Virus record (IMG/VR): IMGVR_UViG_3300026089_000002
Span: 1-51,683 of that record
DNA: 51,683 nt
Strand: one strand, 5' to 3'
Source of the DNA: a virus
This document shows positions 5,983 through 34,000 of this stretch, one piece after another (position 1 is the first letter of the stretch; every line of letters starts with the position of its first letter). The notes beneath the pieces were generated by a model. That model made no database searches, was not told where the DNA came from, and saw nothing but the letters and a program-made list of their open reading frames with translations. A program made the translations under genes and the position numbers.

Positions 5983-6332
5983 GCCAATCAGGATGGATTG
6001 CAGTTGACCTCGATGGAACTCTTGCCCACTACGAAGGGTGGAAAGGCGTTGACCAAATCGGAGAGCCGGTACCACTGATGCTCTCGCGGGTCAAGGGGTG
6101 GTTGGCCGAAGGAAAGTCCGTGAAGATTTTTACCGCTCGCGTTCACGGGCATGGTGCGACCATCATTGGAAGCACGGAAAAAGTGGACGCCATTGGCCCA
6201 ATCGAAAAATGGTGCCAGAAACACATCGGCCAAGTTCTGACAGTGACCAATGTCAAAGACTTCGGCATGATCGAGCTTTGGGACGACCGAGCCATTCAAG
6301 TAAAAATGAATACCGGAGAGCGTGTGCCATGA
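5979..6332 (+). CDS. HAD-superfamily phosphatase-like protein, 117 aa
   Basis: ATG 5979 is chosen because GGAAAGGAG sits 7 bases upstream; a longer frame from 5928 lacks such a site. Motif I is VDLDGTL (residues 9-15, nucleophile Asp10 and acid Asp12), motif II is a Thr in KIFTAR (49-54), and motif IV is WDDRA (101-105). All the usual HAD catalytic residues are present in a minimal, cap-less length. Similar small HAD proteins in phages are thought to hydrolyse nucleotide or polynucleotide 3'-phosphates; the substrate here is unknown. The stop overlaps the next gene. Confidence 0.8.
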   Translation: MSQSGWIAVDLDGTLAHYEGWKGVDQIGEPVPLMLSRVKGWLAEGKSVKIFTARVHGHGATIIGSTEKVDAIGPIEKWCQKHIGQVLTVTNVKDFGMIELWDDRAIQVKMNTGERVP

Positions 6333-6535
6333 AACCCTTCCTCATCAACCTCCTCGGCATCGGCTACGAGTATGGCACCGTCCACACCGGAGACCAAACG
6401 GACACGACCGGAGCGCGGCGCAAACGCCTTCCGTTATTTCTTCACGGTAGGGTAGAGATTTTAATCGGACGTGGGGACACATGGATAGAAATAAACGAGG
6501 ACTGGTGGAAAAACTTTCAACCCGTGAAGGAATAA
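6329..6535 (+). CDS. Hypothetical protein, 68 aa
   Basis: ATGA overlap with the HAD gene. The product begins MKPFLINLLGIGYEYGTVHT and ends with a Trp-rich segment (GDTWIEINEDWWKNFQPV). A small beta-rich fold is likely. No family is recognised; it is supported by coupling and by the compact gene string. Confidence 0.6.
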   Translation: MKPFLINLLGIGYEYGTVHTGDQTDTTGARRKRLPLFLHGRVEILIGRGDTWIEINEDWWKNFQPVKE

Positions 6536-6539
6536 TTTT

Positions 6540-6755
6540 ATGACCCAGCCTGCCACCAACACTAACGATTTTGGAACCATCCAAATCCCTCACAACCACA
6601 ACGTCACTGGCACTTGCGGAGACTGCGGTGGCCCGATTATTTCTCCGATGATGTGGTCTGGAACGGGCCAGCCTTCGGAGCGTTGTATGAATTGTGGGAA
6701 ACGAGCGAAACCTTTGGCTCCGACCACTCCAATCCGTGAAATGTTTACCTCCTAA
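6540..6755 (+). CDS. Small zinc-ribbon-like protein, 71 aa
   Basis: Two Cys pairs, TCGDCGGP (residues 25-32) and CMNCGK (49-54), with a His-rich lead (IPHNHN), indicate a zinc ribbon. Such small phage proteins may act in transcription or as chaperones; the role is unknown. It shares its first residues (MTQPA) with the next gene product (MTQPS), but the rest differs. Confidence 0.6.
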   Translation: MTQPATNTNDFGTIQIPHNHNVTGTCGDCGGPIISPMMWSGTGQPSERCMNCGKRAKPLAPTTPIREMFTS

Positions 6756-6759
6756 TTTT

Positions 6760-7233
6760 ATGACCCAACCATCACAAGAATCAATCGAAGCTGCGGCCCA
6801 AGTGTGGTGCCGCGACGAGTGCAAGAAAATCATCATGGACACGACCCTCGCCTTCGCCTTTGCCGCCGTGCTGGACGAGCAAATCGAGAAGCGTGGAAAA
6901 CCGTGCGCGTTGCTAACCCACGAACAGCAGTCGCTCCTCAACTTCGAGCGCGACCTGCAAGACATCATCAACCGCTACTCCATCGAGAACGGCAGCGACA
7001 CGCCGGACTTCCTGCTGGCGCGTTACCTGACCGACTGCCTCAAGGCGTGGAATACCGGCGTGAAGGCGCGGGAGAAGTGGTATGGGCACGGGCCGAAGCC
7101 TTGTCCGGTGCCGATTGCCAACAACCCCAACTTTCAAATTGGAGACCCACCCGGATCAATCAGTTCTCTTGGAGGAATTGGAGGAACTGGAAAATACATG
7201 CCGTCAAATATCCCATCTAACTCCACGAAATAA
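6760..7233 (+). CDS. Hypothetical protein, 157 aa
   Basis: ATG 6760 follows the upstream stop by a few bases; an upstream in-frame start at 6694 would overlap the previous gene heavily and is not chosen. The product is helical with AAAQVWCRDECKKIIMDTTL and FERDLQDIINRYSIENGSDT, the latter typical of small early phage proteins. The C-terminal 25 residues are Gly/Pro/Ser-rich (ISSLGGIGGTGKYMP). GC content is higher than in its neighbours. Function unknown. Confidence 0.65.
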   Translation: MTQPSQESIEAAAQVWCRDECKKIIMDTTLAFAFAAVLDEQIEKRGKPCALLTHEQQSLLNFERDLQDIINRYSIENGSDTPDFLLARYLTDCLKAWNTGVKAREKWYGHGPKPCPVPIANNPNFQIGDPPGSISSLGGIGGTGKYMPSNIPSNSTK

Positions 7234-7234
7234 T

Positions 7235-7492
7235 ATGGGATCAATCTTTCCACCCGAAGTCTCCACGCCAGTCCTGAAAAGGATTGCCGAACTCGCCCTG
7301 TGCGACGAGGTATTTTACAAAAACCCCGCCGACCCGATGGACGTTTACGGTGGTGCCGCGCTGATTTTCTGGAAATACGGTCAAAGCATTCAGGTCAGGA
7401 TGCACTCACTCGATCCGAAAAACACGCTGCCGGAAGCAATCAAGAACGCGAAGGCGTGGTTCGCCAAAGTTGAGGAGGAGATGCTCGGATGA
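7235..7492 (+). CDS. Hypothetical protein, 85 aa
   Basis: The ATG at 7235 gives a product with helix-strand-helix character (MDVYGGAALIFWKYGQSIQV, then AIKNAKAWFAKVEEEMLG). No motif or membrane segment. The stop overlaps the next ATG (ATGA), so the gene is part of the coupled early string. Confidence 0.6.
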   Translation: MGSIFPPEVSTPVLKRIAELALCDEVFYKNPADPMDVYGGAALIFWKYGQSIQVRMHSLDPKNTLPEAIKNAKAWFAKVEEEMLG

Positions 7493-7677
7493 AACGCAGA
7501 GTGGTAAAATTCAAGCATCCAGTGACCGGAGTAATCCACACCTTCGCCAGCGCAGTTTGGAAAAGCGATGAGCAATTTGAACTCGCCGTCAGGGATATGG
7601 TTCAGAAATTTCAGCGTGAAGGATTCACTCAGAAGGAACTGATTTCTGACCGTCTGGAGGAGGTAACAATTCCATGA
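7489..7677 (+). CDS. Hypothetical basic protein, 62 aa
   Basis: ATGA-coupled on both sides. The product begins MKRRVVKFKHPVTGVIHTFA and has an amphipathic helix (ELAVRDMVQKFQREGF). Small, basic, no known family. Confidence 0.6.
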   Translation: MKRRVVKFKHPVTGVIHTFASAVWKSDEQFELAVRDMVQKFQREGFTQKELISDRLEEVTIP

Positions 7678-7769
7678 TTGACTCAAATGACATCATCGGA
7701 CTCTGCGCCTGCATGGTGATAATCGTCGTGTTGATTTTGCTGCTTGGCAAGAAGGGTGGTGACGATTGA
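7674..7769 (+). CDS. 31-residue single-pass membrane peptide
   Basis: The ATG overlaps the upstream stop. The peptide has a short polar head (MIDSNDIIGLCA), one hydrophobic helix (CMVIIVVLILLLG, residues about 12-24) and a basic/acidic tail. The coupling on both sides supports translation. The topology fits a small inner-membrane effector; function unknown. Confidence 0.55.
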   Translation: MIDSNDIIGLCACMVIIVVLILLLGKKGGDD

Positions 7770-7918
7770 AAAAGAAAATCTGCTGCTTTTTCGGCTGGCA
7801 CAAGTGGCGCAGTCAGTCCGGTAATTTTATCTGCACAAACGGATGTGGAGAAACCACCCTAATTTGGTGGGAGTGTATTCACTGCGCTAAAAACAAACTG
7901 AAATTTATTGGACACTGA
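7766..7918 (+). CDS. Small Cys-rich protein, 50 aa, TTG start
   Basis: The TTG at 7766 overlaps the preceding stop (TTGA). The product has paired cysteines (ICC, CTNGCGE, CIHC) separated by Trp-rich strands (GWHKWRSQSGNFI), consistent with a small zinc-binding fold. No other start in this frame precedes the first Cys. Function unknown. Confidence 0.55.
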   Translation: MKKKICCFFGWHKWRSQSGNFICTNGCGETTLIWWECIHCAKNKLKFIGH

Positions 7919-7921
7919 TTT

Positions 7922-8095
7922 ATGGGATTCCACCCAAACAGCAGCATTCAAATTCTTCGATGCACCAACCCAAGGAAGATAAAAGTTAATTGGGTATGCG
8001 ATGTGACCGGATGGCACGAAAAGGAATTTGAGTGGGAACAAGAGGACGAGATTGTTAAATTTGTGACCCAACTTTTCAAAGAGAGAGCGATGTAA
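7922..8095 (+). CDS. Hypothetical protein, 57 aa
   Basis: The ATG follows the previous stop by three bases. The product contains ILRCTNPRKIKVNWVCDVTG, then an acidic helix (EFEWEQEDEIVKFVTQLFKE). Small alpha/beta protein without a known family; supported by tight spacing in the gene string. Confidence 0.55.
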   Translation: MGFHPNSSIQILRCTNPRKIKVNWVCDVTGWHEKEFEWEQEDEIVKFVTQLFKERAM

Positions 8096-10403: not shown

Positions 10404-10877
10404 ATGCTGACCGTTATCCACAAGACGAAAGTTCCGGCTGGTGGTCAATTCGTTTATATTGACCCGGACAGCGGGCTACGAATGGAGCATCCCTTTTTCG
10501 CGCAACTCATGGAGAACGCCCGGAAGCATCGGGAGGTGAACAATTATCCCATCGGCCTTGAGTGGCGGCATCAATTCGAGGCGAACGTGTGCCAGAACAC
10601 GCCCGTCCCCGGCCTGTGCGTGGATATAGAGCTTCCGTCCATGCTGGCCCGCGCCGGACACCTGATGAAAGCGGTCACTGATTTCGCGCTCTCTGGATTC
10701 AAGACCTGCACCTACGAACAGGTAGCCGAACGACAGAGGATTTGCGAGGGTTGTCCATACTGGGGTGGTGCTGCTGGTGGACTTGTTTTCATCGCCTGTG
10801 GAAAATGCGGATGCACCCGAATCAAGCTCGCTCTCGCCACCGAAAAATGTCCGAAAGATAAATGGCCCGTGTTATGA
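10404..10877 (+). CDS. Cys-rich conserved protein between terminase and portal, 157 aa
   Basis: The N-terminal part is soluble with mixed structure. The C-terminal 45 residues carry six cysteines: RICEGCPYW (114/117), ACGKCGC (132/135/137) and EKCPKDKW (149). This is a rubredoxin-like metal-binding knuckle that I have seen in uncharacterised proteins next to phage packaging genes. Its stop overlaps the portal ATG. Role unknown; a structural or packaging accessory is likely by position. Confidence 0.65.
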   Translation: MLTVIHKTKVPAGGQFVYIDPDSGLRMEHPFFAQLMENARKHREVNNYPIGLEWRHQFEANVCQNTPVPGLCVDIELPSMLARAGHLMKAVTDFALSGFKTCTYEQVAERQRICEGCPYWGGAAGGLVFIACGKCGCTRIKLALATEKCPKDKWPVL

Positions 10878-13180
10878 CAGACTCAACCTCACTCATCGAA
10901 AACCCATCCGGGTATGACGGACTTAAAAACCTTCAACAGCCGGACGCAACGCCGCCCGAAACTCGAATTTCCTCCGCCGCACAAGCGCAGCAAATGGTCG
11001 CCCGCGCTGTCCTTGCGGACTGGCCGCGTGACGCGAAGCGGGCCAAGGTGAAGGGGTTGGTGGACGGAAATCCACCCTACCGTCAGGCTGACCTTGAGGC
11101 CGCAGGCAACGCCGACCGCTGCAATGTGAACTGGCGATCCACCGAGTCCTACCTCAACGCCGCGCTCACCGCCTTCTACGATATTTTTTCCGAGTCGCCC
11201 ACTTATGCCACCGTCATTCTCGACACTCCGAACCACGGAGACAGAGTGGACAAGAGCCGGATTGCGACCGAGGAGTTTGACCGGCTGCAACGCCGGGAAT
11301 CCTCTTTCGATTACAACATGCAGCTTTCCCAGAACGACATGGTTCTGTACGGCAGCGGGCCGATGTATTTCCCAGACCACGTTGATTGGAGGCCGAGGGC
11401 GTTTCAGCACAAAGACCTGCTGGTGCCGGAAAACGCCAAGAGCAACACCGACCTGTGGGAGTGGTGTGCCGTCCGCATGGCCTACCTGCCACATGAGATT
11501 TACGCCTACATTATGAACGAGGAGTCCGCAACCCAGATGGGTTGGGATGTGGAGGCGACCAAGCAGGCCATTATGGAGGCCCACCCTGAATATGCCCAAG
11601 GCGGAAATTACCTGAACTGGGAATGGGTTCAGCAGCAGGTCAAAAACAATTCATATCTTTGGGCCGCGCAGTCAAATAAAGTTTTCGTTTCCCATGTTTA
11701 TTTCCGCGAGTTCCCGACCGAGGGCGCAGTTGAGGGCAAGATTTCCCACGTTATCGTCGTTGAAAATTACGGTCAGGAGAAATCCGAGACCGGAGACGAG
11801 GATTTCCTGTTCCAGAAAATCGGACAATTCGACAACTGGAATGAGGTGATGCACCCGATGTATTACGATCACGGCGGCGGCGGCCAGCACCACTCCGTCA
11901 CCGGCATGGGTGTTAAAATGTTTGCCGCCATGGAATACCAGAATCGCCTGCTCTGCAATCTGGCCGATAAATCTTTCGCTCCGAAGATCATGTTCAAGGC
12001 GTCCACGGCGGAATCCGAGCAAACGCTTTCCATCGCCAACATGGGCGAGTTTGGGTTAATCCCGTCAGGATTTGATGCCGTGCAGATGCCGGTCAATCCC
12101 CTGATGCAGGACGGCCTTTTGTTCAACCGAACACTGACCTCGATGCTCGCCTCAAACCTGAGCCAATACCGGCAGGACTTGGAGCAGGAGAGCGGAAACC
12201 CAATCACCGCAACCGAGGCCCAAATCCGATCCTCACAGCAGGCCAGCCTTGGCAAGACACAACTGAACCGCTACTACGAACAGCTGGACTTCATGTACGC
12301 GGAGAAGTTCAAACGCGCTACGAATCCGAACCTGAGCGAAAAATTGCCGGGAGGAAAAGAAGCGATGGAATTTCAGGAGCGTTGCCGCAAGCGCGGCGTC
12401 ACCATTGAAGATTTACAAAAGGTGGAGTCGGTCAAAGCCACGCGCATTGTCGGCCAAGGCAGTCAATTCCTCCGCCAGCAGTCTCTCGAATTTATCCTCG
12501 GCCTCGTCCAGTCATTGCCGGAAGATGGCCGCACCCATTTGATGCAGGACGTGATTGCGGCCCGCGCCGGACAATCCTCGGTCGCACGCTACTATCCGAA
12601 TCCTGCTTCGATGCAAAAGCCCGGAGAACAGGAAGAACGCGCCAGCAACCAGATTTGCGACATGAAGAACGGGATTCCGGCTCAGGTCAATTCTACCCAG
12701 AACGCCGTCATCTTCTGCCAAGCCTATCTCACGGCGGCTTCGTCTGCCCTCCAGAGCATTCAGCAGGGGGGAAATCCTATGGAAGTTTTGTCCTTCCTCG
12801 AACTCTGCGGTCAGGCCATCGCCGCGCAACTCCAGCGAATCAGTAACGACCCGACCAGAAAACTCGTCGTGCGCGTGTTGGGCGACCAGTTCCACAAAAT
12901 CGCCGGTCTCACCGATCAGCTTAAACAGCATCTCCAGCAGCAGGCCAAAGCCAAACAGCAACAGCAGGCCCAACTTGAGCAAGACCAGCAGCAGCAAAAC
13001 GGGCAGTTGCAACTCCAAGCCGCCAAGACCAAGGCTGACATCGGTATGAAGGGCGCGAAGGCGCAGCAGCAGATGAAAATAAATCAGGAGAAGCACGACC
13101 AGCAACTTTCCATCCACGATGCAACGGCGGCGGCAGAGATTCGCCGCAAGAACCTTCAATCAAAGGAGAAACCCGTATGA
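10874..13180 (+). CDS. Portal (head-tail connector) protein, 768 aa
   Basis: ATG 10874 is preferred to 10862 because it forms an ATGA overlap with the upstream stop. The core has LSQNDMVLYGSGPMYFPDHV and DLLVPENAKSNTDLWEWCAV, then YLPHEIYAY, typical of large podovirus-type portals. A mid region includes HPMYYDHGGGGQHHSVTGMG. The last 110 residues are a Gln-rich helix (QQQAKAKQQQQAQLEQDQQQ), like the barrel or crown of some portals. It forms the dodecameric DNA channel at a capsid vertex. Position right after TerL supports the call. Confidence 0.85.
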   Translation: MTDSTSLIENPSGYDGLKNLQQPDATPPETRISSAAQAQQMVARAVLADWPRDAKRAKVKGLVDGNPPYRQADLEAAGNADRCNVNWRSTESYLNAALTAFYDIFSESPTYATVILDTPNHGDRVDKSRIATEEFDRLQRRESSFDYNMQLSQNDMVLYGSGPMYFPDHVDWRPRAFQHKDLLVPENAKSNTDLWEWCAVRMAYLPHEIYAYIMNEESATQMGWDVEATKQAIMEAHPEYAQGGNYLNWEWVQQQVKNNSYLWAAQSNKVFVSHVYFREFPTEGAVEGKISHVIVVENYGQEKSETGDEDFLFQKIGQFDNWNEVMHPMYYDHGGGGQHHSVTGMGVKMFAAMEYQNRLLCNLADKSFAPKIMFKASTAESEQTLSIANMGEFGLIPSGFDAVQMPVNPLMQDGLLFNRTLTSMLASNLSQYRQDLEQESGNPITATEAQIRSSQQASLGKTQLNRYYEQLDFMYAEKFKRATNPNLSEKLPGGKEAMEFQERCRKRGVTIEDLQKVESVKATRIVGQGSQFLRQQSLEFILGLVQSLPEDGRTHLMQDVIAARAGQSSVARYYPNPASMQKPGEQEERASNQICDMKNGIPAQVNSTQNAVIFCQAYLTAASSALQSIQQGGNPMEVLSFLELCGQAIAAQLQRISNDPTRKLVVRVLGDQFHKIAGLTDQLKQHLQQQAKAKQQQQAQLEQDQQQQNGQLQLQAAKTKADIGMKGAKAQQQMKINQEKHDQQLSIHDATAAAEIRRKNLQSKEKPV

Positions 13181-13398: not shown

Positions 13399-13575
13399 GT
13401 GACTCAATTTACCAAGAAACTTCGACTGTGGCGAGGGTTGAGAACCCAATCGCAAGCCGCGCTCACGCTAGGAGTCCCCATCGGAACTTATCGCGGCTGG
13501 GAATCCGGTCGTCATCTACCACCTGATATGGGAATGGAGTCAATCAAGGATGCTATGAAAAAGGCAAAGCGATGA
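13399..13575 (+). CDS. Minimal Cro/XRE-type helix-turn-helix protein, 58 aa, GTG start
   Basis: The GTG at 13399 opens a frame reading LRLWRGLRTQSQAALTLGVP, then GTYRGWESGRHLPP. This is a classic XRE helix-turn-helix (QSQAALTLGV..GTYRGWESGR) with almost nothing else. The stop overlaps the next ATG. The arms AGTCAC (13379-13384) and GTGACT (13399-13404) form an inverted repeat spanning the start, suggesting self-regulation. A DNA-binding regulator inside the head operon is unexpected. Confidence 0.65.
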   Translation: MTQFTKKLRLWRGLRTQSQAALTLGVPIGTYRGWESGRHLPPDMGMESIKDAMKKAKR

Positions 13576-13922
13576 GTTGGTCTATCGGATATGATGAAAA
13601 ATGGAAACGTGACATTGGTTACGCAGTTCCTGCATTGTGTGATTTTCCAGAATGCAATGTGGAAATAGACCGAGGGCTGGCTTTTGTGTGTGGTGGAGAG
13701 CCGTTTGGTGGAGAGCATGGATGTGGATTGTATTTCTGCGGAAAACACCATCCCCATGTTGAACATCACCTCTGCGAAAGATGTAGAGATGGCCTTTCTC
13801 CGTTTGTGGCAAAACAAGACATCCAAGAATGGATAAAGCACAAACTTAAAGACCCAAGTTGGGAGGCGTGGAGGTTGGAAAATAAAGAGAGCGTATTGGA
13901 AATGGAGAAGCAATTAAAATGA
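13572..13922 (+). CDS. Cys/His-rich probable zinc-binding protein, 116 aa
   Basis: The ATG overlaps the HTH gene stop. The middle reads ALCDFPECNVEIDRGLAFVC, then HGCGLYFCGKHHPHVEHHLC and ERCRDG. It has eight or more Cys and several His in a double zinc-finger arrangement like bacterial CxxC...HxxH proteins. The C-terminal third is helical and charged. It may interact with nucleic acid or protein; unknown. Coupled to its neighbours by overlaps. Confidence 0.65.
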   Translation: MSWSIGYDEKWKRDIGYAVPALCDFPECNVEIDRGLAFVCGGEPFGGEHGCGLYFCGKHHPHVEHHLCERCRDGLSPFVAKQDIQEWIKHKLKDPSWEAWRLENKESVLEMEKQLK

Positions 13923-14323
13923 CCGAAGAAATAAATATGCAAGACCTTGGAACGCGCTGGGTGCTTCTGTTCGAGAAGTGCATCAAGGAGCGCGACTTTA
14001 AAACCGCTCGCACCCTGTTCCACGATGAGGTGATTTATATGGGCATGAGCGACCCATCGGTAATCCACAAGGCCGACGAACTCGCCCAACGCGATTGGCA
14101 GGACGACTGGTTTGGCCGAGTGCAATTCAACTTCGACATCAAGAACTCCCAAATCGCGCCGTTCGGAAACACCTGTCTGATTTGCGTGTCCTTCGAGAAC
14201 CATTCCCGCATTCACGGTGCGCCCAAGCAGTTCGGCAACTGCACCTTTTTCCTCGTCCTGTTCCGCGAGCATCTGCTCTGCATTCACGCCCACCTGACCG
14301 AGACCAGCCGAATCTTCGCATGA
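13919..14323 (+). CDS. SnoaL/NTF2-like small protein, 134 aa
   Basis: The product has the NTF2-type order: helices (RWVLLFEKCIKERDFKTART), a segment LFHDEVIYMGMSDPSVIHKA, then a curved beta-sheet with GNTCLICVSFENHSRIHGA and FFLVLFREHLLCIHAHLTE. The length (about 130) and pattern match SnoaL-like or DUF4440-like cone-shaped folds used as enzymes or binding proteins. It directly precedes the carbohydrate cassette (ATGA overlaps), so a role with that cassette is likely. The substrate is unknown. Confidence 0.55.
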   Translation: MTEEINMQDLGTRWVLLFEKCIKERDFKTARTLFHDEVIYMGMSDPSVIHKADELAQRDWQDDWFGRVQFNFDIKNSQIAPFGNTCLICVSFENHSRIHGAPKQFGNCTFFLVLFREHLLCIHAHLTETSRIFA

Positions 14324-15363
14324 TTCAAGAGCCAAAAATCGGAATCAGATTTCCCGCCACGCGCCTTGAGAATTTCAAGGAGAGATGGATGGGTGGGCGC
14401 AATTTTACCTTCGTGCAAGAGCTTGGCGCATTCGAGCCGGAAGGAATCCACGACCAAAAAGGCTGGCAGGGCGGATTCTATAAATTCCCCGACGAGGACG
14501 ACTTGGTGATTTATTTCAACGCTGGAATCGTGCAATACCGTGACCGGACAATTCTGGTGACAAGAAAAATGTGCGGCAGCTATATGCGGGACGCCAAGAA
14601 TGAAATCTGGTTTTGGGACTTGGTGAATAACGTGCCGACAAACGGGCGCAAGGTCATCTTCGGAACCATCTACGGTGCCGAGGAGCATGAGGACGCCCGC
14701 GCCATTATCTTCAAGGGAGACGTTCTGCTTTCCTGCTGCAATTTCATGCAGGGTAAAACCTTCGCCCATCAGATTATCGCCCGTGTGAATAACCAGTATC
14801 AGGCCAAGGTGCCGATTCATCCTGCCTACGGGAAAAACGGGCGTAACATAATGTCAAACACGGGACATGAGAAAAACTGGCTGTGGTTCGACCATGGCGG
14901 CGAGCTTCATTGCATCTACCTTTCTTGGCCGCACACGATTTTCAAAATGATTGGGGCGACCATCACCGAGGAGTTTGTCACCCATCCAAACATCGGGCAT
15001 CCGAACTATGGCGAGGTTCGGGGCGGCACTCCACCAGTCCGAGTCGGTGACGAGTATTTCAGCTTTTTCCATAGCTCGATGCCGTTCCGTGAAGGCAAGC
15101 GTAGGTATTTCATGGGGGCTTATGCGTTCGAGGCCAAGCCTCCGTTCAAAATGACGCGCATCACCATGAAGCCGCTGCTCTGCGGAAGCTGGTGCGATCC
15201 TCGCCGTGAAGGATTCCCACTGGTCGTGTTCCCTTGCGGTGCGCTATTCAACGGCACCGACTGGCACGTTGTCGGTGGCTGTAACGACTGCTGTGTTTTC
15301 TGGACAAAGGTTCCCCATCAGGAAATGCTGTCACTGATGACAAAAATACCGGAGGTCGGATAA
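14320..15363 (+). CDS. GH130-like five-bladed beta-propeller protein, 347 aa
   Basis: ATG 14320 overlaps the upstream stop; a longer frame starting at 14095 runs through the previous gene and is rejected. Segments typical of GH130 glycoside phosphorylase/hydrolase propellers are visible: VRVGDEYFSFFHSSM (about 240-254), then MGAYAFEAKPPFKMTRI with PLLCGSWCD, and FPCGALFNGTDWHVVGGC (about 305-322) in place of the family's FPxG..YYGaaD. Catalytic identity cannot be confirmed. It may bind or cleave mannosides or serve as a glycan-handling virion protein. It lies with two glycosyltransferases and a methyltransferase. Confidence 0.5.
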   Translation: MIQEPKIGIRFPATRLENFKERWMGGRNFTFVQELGAFEPEGIHDQKGWQGGFYKFPDEDDLVIYFNAGIVQYRDRTILVTRKMCGSYMRDAKNEIWFWDLVNNVPTNGRKVIFGTIYGAEEHEDARAIIFKGDVLLSCCNFMQGKTFAHQIIARVNNQYQAKVPIHPAYGKNGRNIMSNTGHEKNWLWFDHGGELHCIYLSWPHTIFKMIGATITEEFVTHPNIGHPNYGEVRGGTPPVRVGDEYFSFFHSSMPFREGKRRYFMGAYAFEAKPPFKMTRITMKPLLCGSWCDPRREGFPLVVFPCGALFNGTDWHVVGGCNDCCVFWTKVPHQEMLSLMTKIPEVG

Positions 15364-16304
15364 TGCACCTCACAATTTGCTACGGGACTGGTCGGAAGGA
15401 ATGTTTAGCCAAGTGGTTTTTCCAATCACTCGCCAGAGAACTCGCCTCCACTCCACTCGATGTTTCCATCGTCATCGTGGACTACTGGGCCGAGTCCGAG
15501 GGTCGGATGGATTATTGGGCTAAGTGCGCCGATGGTGTTTCCATTCCATACAAAGTTGTGCCACCAAAGCCGACCGTGTGGCAGGGCAAGCATCGCCTGA
15601 CCAGCGTGGATTATTTCGCCGCCGCCAACACGCGCAACACCGCTCTCTGCCACGCGCCGGACGGATATATTTGCCACGTTGACGACCTGAGCATTCTGAT
15701 GCCGGGATTCCTGAACGCTGTCAAAGAGGCGATGGATGGTGGCTACATCGTTTTCGGTGCCTACAAGAAAATGTGCAAGATGGTCGTGGAAAACGGAAAC
15801 CTCGCCTCCCATGAGCCGTTCACACCCGGAGTGGACACGCGCTGGAAGCACGGCAAGGAGGGCGGGAAGATTGTCGCTGCTGGAAGCTGGCTCTACGGCT
15901 GTTCGATGGCCGCGCCGGTTGAAGCATTGCTCAAAATCAACGGCTGGGACGAGCGTTGCGACTGCCGTGGTCAGGGCGCGGAAGATTATTGCACCGGAAT
16001 CATTTTGGAGCGGGCTGGATACCCGATGTTTTATGACCTGCGAATGCTGACCTACGAGAGCGAGGAGCATCACCACATTGAGCCGCCGTTGAAGCGCGAG
16101 ATTCCTGTTGTCCCCGGAAAGAAAGACGCCACCCACGAAATGCTGGCCTTCGTGATGAATCCGAACGCGACCGTCTGCCCGAATTATTTCGATCTGGGCG
16201 GAATCCGTGCGCTCCGTGAAAAGATTTTGCGCGGAGAACCGTTTCCCCCGTGCGGAATACCGGAACACTGCTGGTATTCAGGCACCCCACTTCGAGAATT
16301 ATGA
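15363..16304 (+). CDS. GT-A fold glycosyltransferase, 313 aa
   Basis: The ATG is at the last base of the previous stop (TAATG). A Rossmann-like start (LDVSIVIVDYW), then NTRNTALCHAPDGYICHVDD (metal-binding Asp pair at about 103-104) and a C-terminal INGWDERCDCRGQGAEDYC (about 193-209) match GT-A enzymes whose acceptor loop is G(W/F)DE...GxGxEDxd (the glycosyltransferase 7 C-terminal type). It should transfer a sugar from a nucleotide donor. The acceptor may be a phage virion glycan or host surface sugar; not determinable. Confidence 0.7.
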   Translation: MHLTICYGTGRKECLAKWFFQSLARELASTPLDVSIVIVDYWAESEGRMDYWAKCADGVSIPYKVVPPKPTVWQGKHRLTSVDYFAAANTRNTALCHAPDGYICHVDDLSILMPGFLNAVKEAMDGGYIVFGAYKKMCKMVVENGNLASHEPFTPGVDTRWKHGKEGGKIVAAGSWLYGCSMAAPVEALLKINGWDERCDCRGQGAEDYCTGIILERAGYPMFYDLRMLTYESEEHHHIEPPLKREIPVVPGKKDATHEMLAFVMNPNATVCPNYFDLGGIRALREKILRGEPFPPCGIPEHCWYSGTPLREL

Positions 16305-16939
16305 ACCCGATAAAAACTCTCACGGAAATTACTGAGTTGCTGCCGAGGCTGACCGGATGGTGCAGCGAGCGCAAGGCTTTGGCTCTGGCGATTTCCGTGT
16401 ACGCCAACCGCCCTCTGGTCGGTGTGGAGATTGGCGTCTGGGCGGGTCGGTCTCTGTTTCCTGTCGCTATGGCAATGCGGGATTTGGGTAAGGGAATAAT
16501 CCATGCCGTTGACCCGTGGAGTCCGAATGCCTCAGTCGAGGGTTACGACAAGGCGAACGCCGACTGGTGGGGCAGTAAGGCGAACCACGATGTCGCCTAT
16601 AAACAATTCCTGAGCGCAGTCGTTTCCACCGGCACCACGGCGCACATCGAGGTTCATCGCTGCAAGAGTGACGCCTTCGATCCGCCCAACGAAATTGATT
16701 ACCTCCATGTGGACGGGCAGCACACTGAGCAGGCAATCAAAGACGTAAAACGGTTTGCGGCCAAGGTTCGTATTGGTGGATTGGTTTTTATGGATGACAT
16801 CCACTGGTTCCTCGATGGAGAGCAAAAGCGGTTCGAGGTGCTGAAAGCGGTGGACGAACTGACCGAGATCGGATTCAAAATGCTTTACACGCTCGAAGGC
16901 GGAACCGATGACGGAGCCATGTTTCAAAGGATAAAATGA
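16301..16939 (+). CDS. Class I SAM-dependent methyltransferase, 212 aa
   Basis: ATG 16301 overlaps the upstream stop; a longer frame from 16250 would read into the previous gene. The SAM-binding motif I is VGVEIGVWAGRSLF (about 39-52), motif II GIIHAVDPW, and DYLHVDGQHTEQAIKDVKRF (about 133-152) matches the Methyltransf_24 group, which often modifies sugars. VRIGGLVFMDDIHW follows. Between two glycosyltransferase genes, it probably O-methylates a glycan. Confidence 0.75.
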   Translation: MNPIKTLTEITELLPRLTGWCSERKALALAISVYANRPLVGVEIGVWAGRSLFPVAMAMRDLGKGIIHAVDPWSPNASVEGYDKANADWWGSKANHDVAYKQFLSAVVSTGTTAHIEVHRCKSDAFDPPNEIDYLHVDGQHTEQAIKDVKRFAAKVRIGGLVFMDDIHWFLDGEQKRFEVLKAVDELTEIGFKMLYTLEGGTDDGAMFQRIK

Positions 16940-17499
16940 TTTGCTCGATTTTAATTCCAAGCCGGATGCGGCCCGTGAAGCTCAAGCGGGCCATCGAGTC
17001 TATTCGCGCCACCGCAGACAACCCTGACCAAATCGAAATCTTGGTTCGCCTGCACAGCGACGATGCCAACAGCGTCCCGTTTTTTCACACCGATGGAAAC
17101 CTGCGGGTTTTTGTCGGGCCACCGGAGAAATATAAAAACCTCCATAAAATGTATGACATGCTGGCGAAAGAGGCGAAGGGTCGCTGGGTATGGATTTTGA
17201 ATGACGACATGGAGTTCCGTGGAAAAGGATGGGACACGCAACTCGCCGCCATGAAAGACGGGCTTGTTCAGCCTGAAACAAACCGGCTAAATACCTCCAC
17301 CTACACACACAACCAAGACGGGCCTTTTCCTTGCGTGCCGAATCAATGCTGGACAAAATATGGACACACTGAACTTGGTGATGGCGCGTGTGTTGACCAA
17401 TGGCTGTTCGGGCTTTTGGTTCGTCAGGCCGGATGGCCGGTGTATTTTCTGAACGGAATCGAAATCTGGCACGACCGGGAAGGAGACAATAAGGACTGA
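16936..17499 (+). CDS. GT2-like glycosyltransferase, 187 aa
   Basis: ATGA overlap with the methyltransferase gene. The start ICSILIPSRMRPVKLKRAIE is the typical GT2 beta-strand plus helix, and WVWILNDDMEFRGKGW (about 84-99) contains the DxD-type metal site. The C-terminal part includes ELGDGACVDQWLFGLLVRQA and VYFLNGIEIWHDR. It is short for GT2 but complete. It ends the four-gene carbohydrate cassette. Confidence 0.7.
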   Translation: MICSILIPSRMRPVKLKRAIESIRATADNPDQIEILVRLHSDDANSVPFFHTDGNLRVFVGPPEKYKNLHKMYDMLAKEAKGRWVWILNDDMEFRGKGWDTQLAAMKDGLVQPETNRLNTSTYTHNQDGPFPCVPNQCWTKYGHTELGDGACVDQWLFGLLVRQAGWPVYFLNGIEIWHDREGDNKD

Positions 17500-17852
17500 T
17501 GAATATTTTTAACTGGTTCAAGAAAAATCCCGATCCGAAGATTCAGATTGTCACCAAATCTGTTGACAGTCTCACGCTGCACGAATGGAGAGCCATCCCC
17601 GGTCTGGTTAGTGAGGCCATGAGGATTGAGGCATTACCGGGATTCTCTGGAATGGTGGCTGTGCTGGCGAACGAATGCCCTCACAATTACACCGCAGGCG
17701 CGCTTGACGCCACGGCAGCAATCCGGCAGCTTGGTCGGATCGAGGGATACCAGCTTGCGCTGAACAATCTCGCGCTGATGGCGAAGCCAGTGGCGCACCG
17801 AAAACAAATCGAGGCGGTATTTGAACCTCCTCCTGAACCAAAGAAAGCCTGA
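17499..17852 (+). CDS. Hypothetical head-region protein, 117 aa
   Basis: The ATG overlaps the upstream stop. The product begins MNIFNWFKKNPDPKIQIVTK, includes an amphipathic helix with LGRIEGYQLALNNLALMAKP and ends in a Pro/Lys tail. This IEGYxxALNNL helix before a scaffold gene is a recurring pattern in metagenomic short-tailed phages. No enzymatic motif. A structural accessory is likely. Confidence 0.6.
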   Translation: MNIFNWFKKNPDPKIQIVTKSVDSLTLHEWRAIPGLVSEAMRIEALPGFSGMVAVLANECPHNYTAGALDATAAIRQLGRIEGYQLALNNLALMAKPVAHRKQIEAVFEPPPEPKKA

Positions 17853-17855
17853 CCT

Positions 17856-19025
17856 ATGCCCGAAGCACCCGCCGCCACTGGAGTTCTCCCCGAAGGAGAA
17901 ATCGCCGATGACTCGATTATTTCACCGATGCTCGCCAAGCTGACCGAGTTGATGCCGAAGCAACCGGACGAGAAAAAGGATGAAGCCAACCCTCCTCCAC
18001 CACCCAAGAAAGACGATGCTCCGCCCGCACCAAAAAAAGATGACGCGCCACCGCCCCCGCCCGCGCCGGACGACATTGAGTTGAAAAACGCCAGCCCGAA
18101 GGCGAAGGAGGCTTTCAACCTCATCAAAAAAGATCGGGACACGTTCAAGGGTCAGGCCGTCGAGAAGGACAAGACCATCGCCAAGCTCACCGCCGATCTC
18201 GCCGCCGCCAAGGGCGCACAGGACATCAAGGCGCACCCCGAATACGCCGCTCTCGCCAAGGAGCGCGATGAACTGGACGCCCGACTCCGTATTGCCTCGG
18301 TGGAACGCCACCCAAAGTTTCAGGCCCATTTCACCAAGGCTTTCGGTGATGCCGCGAATCTCGCCAAGGATGCGGTAGGCAAGGACAACGCCGCGAAGGT
18401 GGAAAAGATTCTCCAGATGCCGGACGGCGAGGCTCGTCAGGACGCGCTCGAAGCCATGGCCGCAGAATTGTCCCCGCTCAAGCAGGGGCAACTCGCCAAC
18501 GCCCTAACCGACTGGCGGCGGGCCGAGGCCGAGAAGAATTCGGAACTCGCCCGCGCTGGCGAGAGCTTTGAAAAACTTCAAGCCGATGAAAAGGCCCGTG
18601 GCGAGAACGCCTCGAAGCAGAACCTCGAAAAACGCCAAGCTGTTGCCGCGACTGCGCTCAAAATCGCCAGCGGGTTCGACGCCTTCAAAACCATCGAAGG
18701 CGATGACGCGCATAACGCGGAAATCGCCGGTAACGAGGCGTTCGTGAAGTCGTTTTTCTTGGGCAAAGTGCCGGACAATATCCTGCCGTCCATTCCGGTC
18801 ATGGTCGTCGAGGGGATGCACATGAAGAACAAGGTGATCCCCGCGCTCAAGTCCGACATCGAGCGGCTGAACAAAGTCATCGAGGGATACACCAAGGGTT
18901 CCCCCGGACTGCCGAAGGGTGGCGACACCAAGCCCGCGCCTGCTGGAAATCCGTCCACCAAGAACGTGGACGGCACCCAAAAGACCTTCCTCCAAGTCTA
19001 TGAAGAAAACGCGCCGAAAAATTAA
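17856..19025 (+). CDS. Putative scaffolding protein, 389 aa
   Basis: This is the standard position directly before the capsid gene. The N-terminus is acidic, then Pro/Lys/Asp-rich low complexity at about residues 42-72. A long Ala/Lys/Glu-rich helical core follows (KDTFKGQAVEKDK-like coils, LGKVPDNILPSIPVM later), with a short basic C-terminal region (TKNVDGTQKTFLQVYEENAP). Composition and context fit an internal scaffold whose C-terminus binds the coat protein. No protease domain is seen. The stop is followed by the capsid promoter. Confidence 0.75.
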   Translation: MPEAPAATGVLPEGEIADDSIISPMLAKLTELMPKQPDEKKDEANPPPPPKKDDAPPAPKKDDAPPPPPAPDDIELKNASPKAKEAFNLIKKDRDTFKGQAVEKDKTIAKLTADLAAAKGAQDIKAHPEYAALAKERDELDARLRIASVERHPKFQAHFTKAFGDAANLAKDAVGKDNAAKVEKILQMPDGEARQDALEAMAAELSPLKQGQLANALTDWRRAEAEKNSELARAGESFEKLQADEKARGENASKQNLEKRQAVAATALKIASGFDAFKTIEGDDAHNAEIAGNEAFVKSFFLGKVPDNILPSIPVMVVEGMHMKNKVIPALKSDIERLNKVIEGYTKGSPGLPKGGDTKPAPAGNPSTKNVDGTQKTFLQVYEENAPKN

Positions 19026-19267: not shown

Positions 19268-20497
19268 ATGGCCTGCGCAACACCATTTGATGCGTTCCGT
19301 CTCGCAACGGAATCGCTCCCCAACGAAGTTTATAAGAAAGCCGCCTACCGCTCGGTGTGGCTCAACCTCATCCCCCGTGAAGAATACCCGATGGGTACCG
19401 GACTCGTTCAGTCCGTTTTCACCATAGGCCGATCCATGCCGACCACGGACGAACCGGCTTTTACCGCCATCACCACCAAGACCGGCCAGACCTTCACCGG
19501 AACTTGTGGCGACACCTACGAAGCGGTGCCTGTCGGTTTCAATGAATCCACCTACGGCCCGGAACAGTTCGCGTGGCGCGGGCCGGAAGTCTGTCAGGAC
19601 GACCTGATTTACAACCACAAGGCCGCGCAGTTCCTCGCCGCCTACATCCCGGCGATCACGAAGAACACCGAAACCTCCATCAGCAACCGCATGGCCGCGA
19701 TCTACGCCCACTACTCCCCAAAGTCTGTGGCGACCTCCAGCTATCCGACTGTCGCTGGCGGCACGGGAGCACCCCCAACCTCGCCCAACCTCACCTTGAC
19801 CCAATCCACCATGGAATTGAGCCAAGAAATGTTGGACACCACGGCGAACGAACTCAGCCAGAACGGTGCCACCGACCCGAACTCGGACGGTTGGATTCAA
19901 CTCGGAGAAGACGGCCCAATCTACCCGCTCTACATCGGGCAGCAGATGAGCCAACGACTGCTGTTGGACAACGCCGAAATCCGCGCCGATTACCGCAACG
20001 CCTACATGGGCGCAGGCGAAGCCAACCCGCTGCTCAAGCGGCTGGGCGCGACCCGCGTTATCCGCAACTTCCGCCATGTCATCAACCTGTTCCCGCCCCG
20101 CTACACTTACGCGGATGGCGCATACACTCGCGTCCCAACGTGGATTATGCCTAACGCCACAAAGGGTCAGGAAGCGGAAATCAATCCGGCGTATCTCGCG
20201 GCGGATTACGAAGGTGCCTATGTGCTGACGCCGTGGGTTTTCCGGTCGCAGATTGTGAAGCCTGTCAACTCGGCGGCTGGCCTGTCTTGGCCCCCGAAGT
20301 CGTACGCCGGGGAATGGCAGTTCATTGTGGGTGGAAACTTGATTAACGATCCGCCCTGTTTTGACCCCCAGCAGAAGCTAGGTTGCCACTTCGCGTCGTA
20401 CAAACACGCTCCAAAACCCATCTTTCCTGAGTATGGCCGATTGATTATTTACAAGCGTTGCCTCGCCCGTAATCTTGGGGGCGTGACTTGCAGTTGA
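19268..20497 (+). CDS. Putative major capsid protein, 409 aa
   Basis: The call rests on position (after portal and scaffold), on its own strong promoter and leader, and on size. The product begins MACATPFDAFRLATESLPNE and has segments such as NMRWRGP-like AWRGPEVCQDDLIYNHKAAQ, a long helix with LSQEMLDTTANELSQ, and a C-terminal VTPW-type strand region (YVLTPWVFRSQIV). The fold cannot be proven by eye, but nothing else in the head block qualifies. It has several Cys. A strong bidirectional hairpin terminator follows. Confidence 0.75.
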   Translation: MACATPFDAFRLATESLPNEVYKKAAYRSVWLNLIPREEYPMGTGLVQSVFTIGRSMPTTDEPAFTAITTKTGQTFTGTCGDTYEAVPVGFNESTYGPEQFAWRGPEVCQDDLIYNHKAAQFLAAYIPAITKNTETSISNRMAAIYAHYSPKSVATSSYPTVAGGTGAPPTSPNLTLTQSTMELSQEMLDTTANELSQNGATDPNSDGWIQLGEDGPIYPLYIGQQMSQRLLLDNAEIRADYRNAYMGAGEANPLLKRLGATRVIRNFRHVINLFPPRYTYADGAYTRVPTWIMPNATKGQEAEINPAYLAADYEGAYVLTPWVFRSQIVKPVNSAAGLSWPPKSYAGEWQFIVGGNLINDPPCFDPQQKLGCHFASYKHAPKPIFPEYGRLIIYKRCLARNLGGVTCS

Positions 20498-20511: not shown

Positions 20512-20997
20512 TTACACGCCCGCAGGGGGTTGATTCTCCCTGCGGGCCTTTCTCAGATAGTAACCTTTATTTTGATTATGATTGACACAAATACGACACG
20601 ATCTCCAAGGAACGCCACCGCGCCCCTTGCGCCAAATCGTATTCGCCTCGTCGTATGGGTGTCCCTTTGGGCAGTGTGTTTTTCTGCGGTGGTGGTCAGC
20701 ATTTTCTCCGCGAGTCATCAGTCGAAGATGGTTCGGGTTCACGCAACTGGTGTTTCGGCATTCGTGGTCAACCGTCATGTCGTCGGGGATGTCTCCCTTG
20801 AACAGCATGAACGAAGCGCGATGAGCGTATTCCTTTTTCCGGCCAGTCGGATACCACATGGTAAACTGGCCGTATCCGTGGTCGTTTTTCCATTCGGTGT
20901 AATTCCAGCAACCGTTTTCCATCAGTTGAATTTTCTCAGCAAACCGGACATGGACATCGCGGCGTTTACGAATTTGGGTGGGGATAGGTCTTGGCAT
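20512..20997 (-). CDS. Free-standing HNH endonuclease, 161 aa
   Basis: ATG at 20997 (MPRPIPTQIRKRR) is chosen; the frame could extend to a GTG at 21063 with no Shine-Dalgarno in either case. NGCWNY (28-33), EYAHRASF, VDHECRNTSCVNPNHLRLM (76-94, catalytic His78 and Asn/His88-90) and HCPKGHPY with a second C..C pair (134-137) are those of phage HNH_3-type homing nucleases with a zinc tail. It is antisense to the surrounding late genes, a hallmark of a mobile intronless endonuclease inserted after the capsid gene. Confidence 0.85.
   Translation of the reverse strand: MPRPIPTQIRKRRDVHVRFAEKIQLMENGCWNYTEWKNDHGYGQFTMWYPTGRKKEYAHRASFMLFKGDIPDDMTVDHECRNTSCVNPNHLRLMTRGENADHHRRKTHCPKGHPYDEANTIWRKGRGGVPWRSCRICVNHNQNKGYYLRKARRENQPPAGV
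20518..20553. terminator. Intrinsic terminator after the capsid gene
   Basis: GCCCGCAGGG (20518-20527) and CCCTGCGGGC (20538-20547) form a perfect 10-bp stem with a 10-nt loop, followed by CTTTCT. It ends capsid transcripts. The hairpin also encodes the last residues (PPAG) of the leftward HNH gene. Confidence 0.8.
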
Positions 20998-21170
20998 AAT
21001 TTTGAAGCAAACAACCCGCGCTCCAAAAGTAAAGCCGCCGACAGAAAGGCGCAGTTGGAACACGGGTCGTTAAATTATTTTCTGTCATATAAACTTCGTG
21101 AGGTCGAGGGCTTTAAACCCGACTTCTGCCCAAACCGTATCGCCACCATCCACCAAACACAAGGAAAAAT

Positions 21171-29987: not shown

Positions 29988-31076
29988 ATGGACATTTTTG
30001 GTTCAACCGCAACGCCGAGATGGATAGACCCCGACCAGCAAAATCGGGAGTGGAGAAGTCAATATCTGTCGGAAGATCAGGCCCAGACCCAGAAGGCTCT
30101 TGGCTTCGGTCGCCTTGCGCTTGAGCAACAACAGCAGGCGTTGAATGAGAAGGTGCAGGGCGTGGCGATGGTGGGGCAGGGCTATCGGAACCAGATTGCC
30201 CAGCGCGATTTGGCGAACACCGCCGATGACCAAACGCTCTACACGGATTCGGTCAAGGAATTGAACACGCCGGAAGATTGGCTCAACGCCGAGATGCCAG
30301 CGTTCAAGACTTCGCAATTCACGCAGCAATGGCTCAAGGGCCGAGACACAGCCGCACAGACGCTCTCCGGTGCCGCCATCAAGTCCACGCAGGCGACTTC
30401 CCTTGCCACCATCGCCCAGATGAAGGCGAAGCGGATTTCCGATGCTGACGCCGCGTTCAAAGTGACCGGCATCAATCCCTACAAGGTGGACGAGGATACG
30501 GGCGACATTGAATTTGACGGTCACGGGCTACCCATCGTTGACCCTGACGCCTTCACCTCTGCCACACAGAAGATGGCCGAGATTGCCCAAAAACGCGCAG
30601 TCGAGGTGCGGCAAGCTGGGCCGGAAATTACCTCCGCAGGCCGGGAACGTGTTGCCACTATCAATGCCGATGCTCGCCGGGACGTAGCCGACATCGCCGC
30701 CGATTGGCACACGCAAATCGCCACGGCAAAGAATCAGTCCCAGATTGACCAGACGGCGATGAAGCTGAACCGTTACGCCGACACATTTTTCAACGACATT
30801 GACAAGCAGGCGTTCAAAGAGCAGTCCACGGCGATTGCCCACGACACTGCCACGCCGATTGCCGAGCGGAGCCGCCAACTGAACGCGCTCAAGGAGAAAT
30901 ACAAGAACGCGCACCGGAACGAGCAACCCGCCCCCGCCGCCCAGCCTGCGGCGACCAACGCGCCAGCCGGACAGGACGACGAGGCTGCAAAAGCCTTGGC
31001 CGCAATCAAATCAGGCAAAGACCCTGACGCAGTTCGGGCCTTGTATAAAAAGAAAACTGGTAAAGACTTACCGTAA
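29988..31076 (+). CDS. Putative internal virion protein, 362 aa
   Basis: Highly helical, Gln/Ala/Lys-rich (EDQAQTQKALGFGRLALEQQ, then LKGRDTAAQTLSGAAIKS) with a Pro/Ala linker near the C-terminus (EQPAPAAQPAATNAPAG). A Lys/Asp C-terminal cap follows (KDPDAVRALYKKKTGKDL). Its stop overlaps the start of the giant gene (TAATG). Middle member of the ejection-like trio. Confidence 0.55.
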   Translation: MDIFGSTATPRWIDPDQQNREWRSQYLSEDQAQTQKALGFGRLALEQQQQALNEKVQGVAMVGQGYRNQIAQRDLANTADDQTLYTDSVKELNTPEDWLNAEMPAFKTSQFTQQWLKGRDTAAQTLSGAAIKSTQATSLATIAQMKAKRISDADAAFKVTGINPYKVDEDTGDIEFDGHGLPIVDPDAFTSATQKMAEIAQKRAVEVRQAGPEITSAGRERVATINADARRDVADIAADWHTQIATAKNQSQIDQTAMKLNRYADTFFNDIDKQAFKEQSTAIAHDTATPIAERSRQLNALKEKYKNAHRNEQPAPAAQPAATNAPAGQDDEAAKALAAIKSGKDPDAVRALYKKKTGKDLP

Positions 31077-34000
31077 TGACTGCCGCAGATGATTATGCCG
31101 CATTACCAGACGTAAAGCCCGCCAAAGACGATTACTCGTCACTGCCGGATGCGAACGATTATTCCCGACTCCCTGACGCCAAGCCGCAAGACGGCGTGAC
31201 CGAGGCTCCAGCCTTCCAATGGTCAAAGACCGGAACGCCCATCACTCAGGACTCCAACCGTGAACCTATCGCCCGCGACGACAACTCTGGCGACCTTGCC
31301 GTTATCAACACGCTCGAAGGTGGTCTGAAAGCACTCGCCAGAATACCGGAGGCAATCGCTTCAATACCGGCAATCGTCCAGAACGCAATTCAGGGAGCGA
31401 ATTACGCCATAGGCACAACGAAAGTGCCGCCCAATGATTTCAAAATGGCCGAGGATAAGCCGCTACTGGAGGATGAATTTTACCACCCCGAAATCCCAAC
31501 CAAGCAAGTTATGTCTATGCTTGGCTACGGTGCAGAGGGCCAAGAAATCGCTGGCGGTTATTCCAAGTCCATCCTGAAACAAATTGCCGGATTAACCTCG
31601 CCGAAGATGCTTATGGCCGCGCCCGTGGCGGCAGAGGAAGGAATTGCTGGCAATATCATGCGGACTGCCTTTGGTGAGTCCATGGTGACAGCGGTGCCGG
31701 AAGCTGCGGCCAAGGCTGGCACGGCGTCAGTGGAAGGGACGCCAGAGGAGCGGGGCGCGGCTTACGCTGACTTGGGCGCGACGACTTTGCTTCCGATCGC
31801 CATGGTTGTCCACGCTGCCGCAGCGAACAAGGCACCGCTTACTGCTGCCGCGCTTGCTGAGTCTGCCGACAAGCCAAAAATTCTCATGTCGCAGGACGAC
31901 CCGACAATTCCACGAACCCCAGCCAAAGATGCCACCGATGCCGAACTCGCGGCCCGTGGTGCACAAGTCGCCCAAATCGTCACCCAAGACCCGTCCCGAC
32001 TCCAAGAGCACGCCGCTGAGATTGACGAGATTCACGACGAAATCCAGAAGCGTTTGAAGAAAAACGAACTCGAATCTGACCGTCAGCGCGAGGCTGAAAT
32101 CAGCGCACGGATGAAGGATATTCAGGACAACCATTTGGACGAACTCCTCGACGCCGACCATCCCATCACAAAAGAACACACCGCGCTCTTTGGTGAGATG
32201 GAGGACTTGAAGAATAAATACGAAGGCCAAAAACCGAGCGATGTCACGACTGAGGATGAGTCAAAACAGAGCTTGGTCATCAACCTTTCCGCCGCCACCG
32301 ACAAGATTCCCGGCCTGCAAAAATTGAAGGACGAGGCCAAGGCGGGGGACGCCAGCGCAGGTAGCCTTTTGAGCGACATTGCCACCGACCATATTCGCCA
32401 CCTCCTCTCTGGCACGGACGCCGAGATTGAACATTCGCCGACCACTGGTGTCTATGGTGGTGATTATGAGCCATCTGTTCGGCTCAAGGTGACGTTCGAT
32501 CAGGCTGATGAAAAACATGTCATGGCGGCATTGGCGAAGTTCTCTGACAATTTCGAGCAGGAGCAGATTCATGTTCGCGGAGACGCCGCTGATGGCACGG
32601 GTATCGAGCATGATTACGGTGATGGGAGCTACAACACTCCCGCCTACCGCATAAAACTGAACAAGCCGCTGACGCCAGTCGAGGTTGAGAAGCTGTCAAA
32701 AGATTCCGGCTTGTATGGAATGACGATGGATGGTAACTTGCTCGAAGCCTACTATGTTGGCGATCCGAGAAACGAAAGCGAAATAAATGAATTTGAGTCC
32801 AATTTCAGAAAAGCCATTGCATCCCTTGGCAGCGATGCACAACCGCATGATTTCTCACTTCAAAGACTTAGGGTTTACGGTAAAGGAAAGGGTGCCATCC
32901 CGTACGGGGAAATTAGTGGCGACATTCGTCCCGCGCCGGGGAGTGCAAACATCATCGCCCAGCGAATTGCCGCCCGCCTCGCCGCCCGCGAAGTAAAGCC
33001 TGAGCCTGCCGCGCCCAAGATGACCCCGAAGCAGGGGCGTCTCCAGACCAAGATTGCTGAACTCTACGGCAAGATGCGGGACATGGCGTTGGGCGACCCA
33101 AAGGTTCGACGCGCCTACAGCGAACTCGCCGCTGAACTCGTTCACCAATACAAGGGGCTTCCAATCCGGGTTGAGTTTTACCCAGAGAAGGGCGCGGAAC
33201 CTTACAAAAACTCTGCTGAGATGCGGAAGGACATTTCGGACAACAATCACCTTTTCATTTACCGCACCACCCCGGACTCGTTTGGCCCCAAGGGAGTTGA
33301 TTACACCGGCCATCCTCTGTTGGAGGATTCTGGCTTCAAGGACGCCAAAGGGAATCCAATGCTGGTCAACGACCTGCTCCGCGCCGTCCACGATTATTAT
33401 GCTCACACGATGACCAAAGCGGAGTTCGGCCCGCTGGGTGAGGAGGCAGCGTGGAAAGCTCACATGAGCATGACCCGAAGCCCTTGGGCGCGTTGGGCCT
33501 TGACCAGTGAAACCCGTGGTCAAAATTCCTACGTCAATTTCGGGCCGGATGCGGAATGGAACCGGACGCACAAATCGGAAACCAAATACGCGCCTCAAAA
33601 GGTTGACCTGCTACCTGTCAAATACGCCATGACCGGCGACAAGGTGATGGATGCTGAGATGCGCCAGATTGCCGCTGAGAAAACGCCCAAACCTGCCTCA
33701 GCGCAAGAATCCACCCTTGGGGTTAATGAAGGCGCACTCGGAGAACTGGGTATGGGTGGAGCAAAGGCTGGCGAGTTCACGCCCAGCGGTCAGGATTTCG
33801 TTTCCAATATGTTCGCCGCCATTGACAAGGAGCGGAAGGAGATGGGCAAGCCGCCGATGCCGGAAACGAAAACGCGCACTTGGGACGAGGACAATCAGAG
33901 GGCGTTGGCGACGATGAATCGTGACCCGAACTGGATTCCAAATCTCATTCGTGAGGTGACGGACAATCCACGCCCACTCCTCTCATGGGAAAACGCCGGT

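Follow-up and report, generated by a model that had tools for sequence, protein, structure and literature searches.

Why should a phage keep a set of carbohydrate-active genes in the midst of the genes for its head? The question is raised by a 51,683-base IMG/VR virus record of an uncultured phage, analysed here over its whole length (the window), in which six overlapping genes (13919-17852) sit between a putative portal gene and a putative scaffold gene. A sequence-only reading had described a carbohydrate cassette inserted into a head operon, whose products could build and methylate a glycan on the virion or else remodel the sugars of the host surface. We find that the proposed enzyme classes hold, that the cassette is one of several fillings of an exchangeable slot, and that decoration of the virion is its probable function.

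Results

Overlapping genes between the putative portal and scaffold

From 13399 to 17852 the end of every gene runs 4 or 1 bases into the start of the following one, all genes given coordinates here being on the plus strand, and the open reading frames lie where the sequence-only reading had placed them. The left edge of this run, outside the cassette, is formed by a 58-residue protein that looks helix-turn-helix-like by eye (13399-13575), followed by a 116-residue Cys/His-rich protein without a function call (13572-13922; PHROG 18518, E 6e-35). The cassette itself comprises a weakly SnoaL/DUF4440-like protein (13919-14323), a GH130-type five-bladed propeller (14320-15363), the GT-A glycosyltransferase gtA (15363-16304), a class I O-methyltransferase (16301-16939), a second glycosyltransferase, gtB (16936-17499), and g117, a small conserved protein that also has no function call (17499-17852). 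Base composition gives no signal of recent import for the cassette, which is no outlier in the window; only the 116-residue gene is, with a GC of 0.439 and a GC3 of 0.385 against a GC of 0.53 for the window.

The putative portal (10862-13180) precedes this run, and the putative scaffold (17856-19025) and putative major capsid protein (19268-20497), the latter a candidate acceptor for a glycan, follow it. Searches of Pfam, PHROGs and PDB profiles, fewer of them in the case of the scaffold, gave no support for these three names, and it is therefore from gene order that the head-operon genes take their labels. The terminase has typical motifs by eye and weakly matches 'Gene 2 protein' chains (E 0.083), which we take to be the Sf6 terminase. 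With portal and scaffold named in this way, the coupling of the cassette genes and their position between the two stand as originally described.

A GH130-type propeller with a conserved mannose site

The product of 14320-15363 scores 23.4 bits against Pfam GH130 (PF04041), or 23.6 in a six-frame search, below the gathering cut-off of 26, and we therefore call it GH130-type instead of filing it as a member of GH130. Its AF2 model (pLDDT 82.4, pTM 0.83) is a five-bladed beta-propeller whose top solved matches are all GH130-type (best 5b0q, Z 27.1, rmsd 3.0 over 274 residues), compared with a Z of 22.9 to 6q4z and below for GT108 and of 19.6 or less for GH43. In a PDB search the profile of the propeller family matches Listeria Lin0857, a 1,2-beta-mannobiose phosphorylase (E 4.1e-13), together with Thermoanaerobacter phosphorylases and the mannoside synthase Uhgb_MS; GT108 chains are absent from the result. 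Profile and structure searches alike thus lead to GH130-type enzymes, not to the non-carbohydrate family that had been named in advance as fatal to a glycan pathway.

Most GH130 members characterised so far phosphorolyse or hydrolyse mannosides, and in characterised enzymes an Asn/Asp/Asp triad recognises mannose (PMC4264767, PMC4599007). The phage protein shares this triad, like the five-bladed propeller, with GH130 and GT108: among 21 viral clusters formed at 80% identity, Asn67 (assigned by alignment to Lin0857) is present in 20/20, Asp125 in 20/20 and Asp323 in 19/19 of those that have the position. Glu124, Arg127, Lys185-Asn186-Trp187 and His251 are likewise unchanged in 20 of the 20 clusters having them, and a Glu beside the catalytic Asp is also what the GH130_NC group has. 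In the EDPR motif Ala replaces Pro in the window propeller, as it does in Lin0857. Besides their low Pfam score, the viral propellers appear, from HMM alignments, to differ from the aligned GH130 phosphorylases at one basic position of the putative phosphate site, where those enzymes have K/R and the viral residue is variable (E232 in the window); R234, K185-N186-W187 and H251-S252 are conserved and family-specific. Propeller and methyltransferase are fused as one reading frame in one locus (L015). Giant-virus proteins with the same fold bear the names LicD/FKTN, alpha-1,3-fucosyltransferase and WcaK, which point to glycan building, although such names may describe other domains of these long proteins.

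The partner enzymes

No Pfam family matches gtA, whose model (pLDDT 88.7) has a GT-A fold and is closest to K4 chondroitin polymerase (Z 21.4), with polypeptide GalNAc-transferases among the next-best structures (Z about 17). Its DXD-like motif (VDD, residues 106-108) and ED motif (GAED, residues 205-208) contain D107, D108 and D208, invariant in 10/10 alignment rows. The second transferase, gtB, with NDD at 89-91, is marginally over the cut-off for Glycos_transf_2 (PF00535; 23.9 versus 23.3 bits). The glycosyltransferases are therefore of the GT-A type and not of unrelated folds, the second outcome that had been named as fatal.

The methyltransferase belongs to Methyltransf_24 (PF13578; 55.2 bits against a cut-off of 26.3), and the best solved match to its profile is 6g7d (E 2.3e-9). 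This structure is, we presume, mycobacterial MeT1, a methylmannoside methyltransferase. The activity of MeT1 is described in a published account (PMC9883506). Propeller, transferases and sugar-type methyltransferase are thus confirmed as classes by Pfam and structure models, and the SnoaL-like assignment survives as a similarity of 22.8 bits that falls below the Pfam cut-off of 25.2. The latter protein has no PDB profile match and is rare among the loci retrieved, occurring on 2 further contigs at 3 loci downstream of the putative portal (L155, and L010/L099 on one contig). A simple hydropathy scan of the cassette genes found no 19-residue window above 1.30 and hence no membrane segments.

Relatives and selection

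The propeller profile matches at least 306 viral contigs, of which 80 were kept; because these loci had been chosen by the propeller, a second selection by the putative portal was also made (227 contigs, 80 kept). Median dN/dS values among relatives are 0.082 (propeller), 0.064 (methyltransferase), 0.071 (gtA, 11 pairs) and 0.063 (putative portal), from randomly drawn, non-independent pairs of proteins that are 85-98% identical. Purifying selection acts strongly on the cassette, about as strictly as on the putative portal, and with medians this low its genes are far beyond chance.

Searches of 50,697 phage records by tblastn with the propeller, gtA, the methyltransferase, the putative portal and the putative capsid gave no matches, and the sole match of gtB was a weak one to Pelagibacter phage HTVC008M. 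No cultured relative of this phage lineage was found by tblastn. Titles and abstract openings concerning GH130 with phage or viral auxiliary genes, glycosyltransferases and methyltransferases between portal and scaffold, virion glycosylation and Corndog held no account of the lineage.

An exchangeable slot between the portal and g117

Among 116 loci with both a putative portal and a putative scaffold, 92 have the propeller between the two, 13 have less than 600 bp there and 11 have other content; the 55 portal-selected loci taken alone divide into 33, 11 and 11. Since some contigs contribute two or more loci, cluster counts are preferable. Grouped at 90% portal identity, the loci form 25 clusters, with the GH130 cassette in 12, less than 600 bp in 6 and other content in 7, and the 20 clusters that have a portal-selected member divide into 8, 5 and 7. 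In L018, counted among the six near-empty clusters, the cassette lies between the terminase and the putative portal, so that five clusters are empty in the full sense. The right border of the slot is g117, which precedes the putative scaffold in 24/25 clusters. The survey of related phages thus recovers the same cassette at the same junction in 12 of the 25 clusters, and other content or hardly any in the other 13.

Even the shared cassette varies, the methyltransferase being present in 11 and gtA in 8 of the 12 propeller-bearing representatives. A sugar-binding-DXD glycosyltransferase adjoins the propeller in one slot (L152) and GT25 occurs in two (L158 and L100); elsewhere the slot has two sulfotransferases, an FkbM methyltransferase and a 557-residue protein without a Pfam match (L102), a radical SAM protein (L020), or 1.25 kb with no recognised enzyme (L097). 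A two-gene pair fills it in five clusters (L135, L112, L131, L119 and L123). We do not claim these pairs as glycosyltransferases on their likeness by eye; the two that were tested (L135 and L112) had no Pfam match.

On the portal tree, in which the rooting and several branches are uncertain, the five slot labels need 7 changes where the least possible is 4, whereas 200 shufflings of the labels gave a mean of 11.7 and never as few as 7; slot contents therefore partly follow descent and yet have changed repeatedly. Well-supported branches force at least two changes of the GH130 label. The cassette was not found elsewhere in 16 records of cassette-free relatives, many of them probably fragments, in a set of searches of which two were without a positive control and the Glycos_transf_2 search had controls that gave matches. 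The description of the cassette as inserted is therefore right as to insertion, but this was no one-off event, as relatives fill the slot differently or leave it nearly empty. What is new is the exchangeable slot between portal and g117, together with the regular presence of a GH130-like enzyme in phages, whose fold recurs in giant-virus proteins named as glycan enzymes.

Discussion

Carbohydrate genes in this position have a published precedent. In cluster O mycobacteriophages such as Corndog, the interval from portal to protease contains an O-methyltransferase gene and three of glycosyltransferase type, for which the authors of the cluster O study proposed a role in capsid modification (PMC4351075). 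Two further texts state that the capsid and tail tube of Corndog or its cluster are glycosylated, both citing a 2023 study (PMC11600133, PMC12363180). The annotated cluster O record ON260829 has the O-methyltransferase and glycosyltransferase-type genes directly after the portal and before the protease and capsid. Like Corndog and Idergollasper, the phage of the window thus carries such genes after the portal, here a gene-order label, and before protease, scaffold or capsid genes; both methyltransferases are Methyltransf_24, and GT25 is present in both settings. Virion glycoproteins have been reported for cluster O. Unlike the window, cluster O has no GH130-type enzyme among these genes and belongs to a different phage lineage, the exchange of the slot among relatives being seen here. 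Profile comparisons of the cluster O methyltransferase and glycosyltransferases with the window proteins gave E-values of 0.092, 0.38 and 0.3, with only the Pfam family of the methyltransferase in common. The sequences are thus not convincingly related beyond that family, which points to a convergent or very old placement of like genes.

Viral glycosyltransferases are also joined by methyltransferase genes in chlorovirus PBCV-1, where A064R and A061L take part in building the methylated glycan that the major capsid protein carries (PMC9614988). PBCV-1 differs from the phage in being a eukaryotic virus with a rhamnose-bearing N-glycan. A third parallel comes from two clusters of Chlamydiae MAGs (L094 and L096), in which GT25, a Methyltransf_24-type methyltransferase and a GH130-type propeller adjoin each other, an arrangement also seen in those phage loci that have a GT25. 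The chlamydial proteins, unlike those of the phage cassette, start with signal-peptide-like stretches (by eye), and a gene-profile search found no phage head genes in either locus. L096 also holds a BclA-like collagen protein and a GT92. It was this vicinity of GT25 and a collagen protein that suggested the collagen-like tail-fibre protein g410 as an acceptor, an idea that we dropped, short Gly-X-Y runs occurring in g410 both with and without the cassette.

The enzyme classes, the coupling and the position make a pathway that builds and methylates a glycan possible. Taking the genes, folds, mannose-site residues, selection, gene order and exchange as observed, we infer a late, co-translated glycan-modification cassette that would make a short, methylated and probably mannose-containing glycan. 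The acceptor of this glycan would be a protein of the virion, most likely of the head, modified while particles assemble in the cytoplasm. Attachment and extension of the sugars would fall to the GT-A enzymes; the GH130-type propeller would form or trim a linkage of beta-mannoside type, and a hydroxyl would be capped by the class I methyltransferase. The methylated-mannose part of the proposal draws on the fold, the residues and one profile match, to 6g7d, presumed to be MeT1, and it may be read with corresponding caution. A non-systematic look identified no nucleotide-sugar synthesis gene. As a whole, glycosylation of the virion with methylation is the explanation that we hold to be probable, though well short of assured, and the exchange of the slot would let the coat sugar change from one relative to another.

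Could the cassette act on something other than the virion? It might remodel host surface polysaccharide late in infection, so as to block adsorption to debris and superinfection or to ease release, with the propeller trimming mannosides; GH130 enzymes are described as degrading mannosides (PMC4599007), and some relatives have GT25/LPS-type and sulfotransferase genes in their slot. The hydropathy scan speaks against export or anchoring, soluble cytoplasmic transferases cannot get to the outer surface unaided, the cassette sits among head genes, and no integrase was found in the record, which may be incomplete. Of the two targets that the sequence-only reading had offered, the virion is thus favoured over the host surface, because of a published precedent for the position and the enzyme classes (PMC4351075, PMC12363180), the missing membrane segments and the missing integrase; we regard host-surface remodelling as unlikely.

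A soluble methylated mannoside for storage, osmotic balance or signalling, with the propeller as a phosphorylase, is another conceivable product, comparable with Leishmania mannogen or mycobacterial methylmannose polysaccharide. The match of the methyltransferase to 6g7d would suit it, and GH130/GT108 include mannogen transferase/phosphorylases (PMC8950772), but the gene position and the exchange with unrelated glycan genes suit coat decoration better, and a phage without a detected integrase would have no obvious benefit from such a compound, which makes this a quite improbable role. Phage glycosyltransferases often act on DNA (PMC12619734), and base hypermodification against restriction would be a familiar use for them. 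We find this hard to credit for the present cassette: a GH130-type mannoside enzyme and sulfotransferases fit poorly with it, and the record, although possibly incomplete, has no thymidylate-synthase-family gene in a search whose control matched 9/14.

Decoration of the virion thus being our preferred reading, a more far-reaching scenario may be sketched, which we advance tentatively and would not yet bet on. The region between portal and scaffold may be a glycotype locus of a large uncultured phage lineage, a site where whole glycan pathways (GH130-type enzyme with glycosyltransferases and methyltransferase, sulfotransferase with FkbM, the two-gene pair) are swapped so that coat sugars switch in the manner of bacterial capsule types, and the GH130-type proteins may form a viral mannoside synthase family of their own, with a fold common to giant viruses. 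As GH130, GT108 and mannoside synthase have one fold, the addition of a GH130-type family that probably works in glycan construction would be of interest to CAZyme classification. If virion glycosylation is indeed what the cassette provides, the slot would offer a clear locus for testing the roles of phage coat sugars in adsorption, grazing, stability and defence, and capsid glycosylation would be widespread and changeable among environmental tailed phages and not a curiosity of mycobacteriophages.

The left edge of the slot, the junction between the putative portal gene and g117 that holds the glycan-gene cassette in the window, is occupied by a gene (13572-13922) for a 116-aa Cys/His-rich protein of PHROG 18518. 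Since its GC content (0.439) and GC3 (0.385) lie far below those of its neighbours, it is possible that this gene arrived there recently. Slot content in relatives takes other forms. The cassette's GT-A glycosyltransferase gene, gtA, lies inside the slot on the opposite strand in L126 (11244-12251, for example), L128 and L173, and a radical SAM protein with a weak B12-binding match stands at the head of the slot in L020 (4149-5558). Proteins of about 430 aa are encoded close to the portal end in L100 (9997-11280), L104 (11402-12703) and L105 (11652-12953); by eye they appear to be related to one another, and a Pfam search with the L105 protein returned no match.

In L004, L008, L118, L127 and other relatives, the putative capsid gene follows the putative scaffold gene at a distance of one to several kb and is encoded on the minus strand, an arrangement that differs from the window's. 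Directly past the window's putative capsid gene lies a minus-strand ORF of 183 aa (20512-21063) that, by eye, resembles an HNH endonuclease. Further along, a 2005-aa protein (31076-37093) has a PHROG match to DarB-like antirestriction proteins (E 3.3e-10).

In L015, GH130-type propeller and methyltransferase profiles both match a single 616-aa ORF (6154-8004). Two clusters from Chlamydiae MAGs, L096 (1-8516) and L094 (2-3067), encode GT25, a methyltransferase and a GH130-type propeller, and L096 also carries a BclA-like collagen protein and GT92. Perhaps this Chlamydiae gene set constitutes a surface-glycoprotein pathway.
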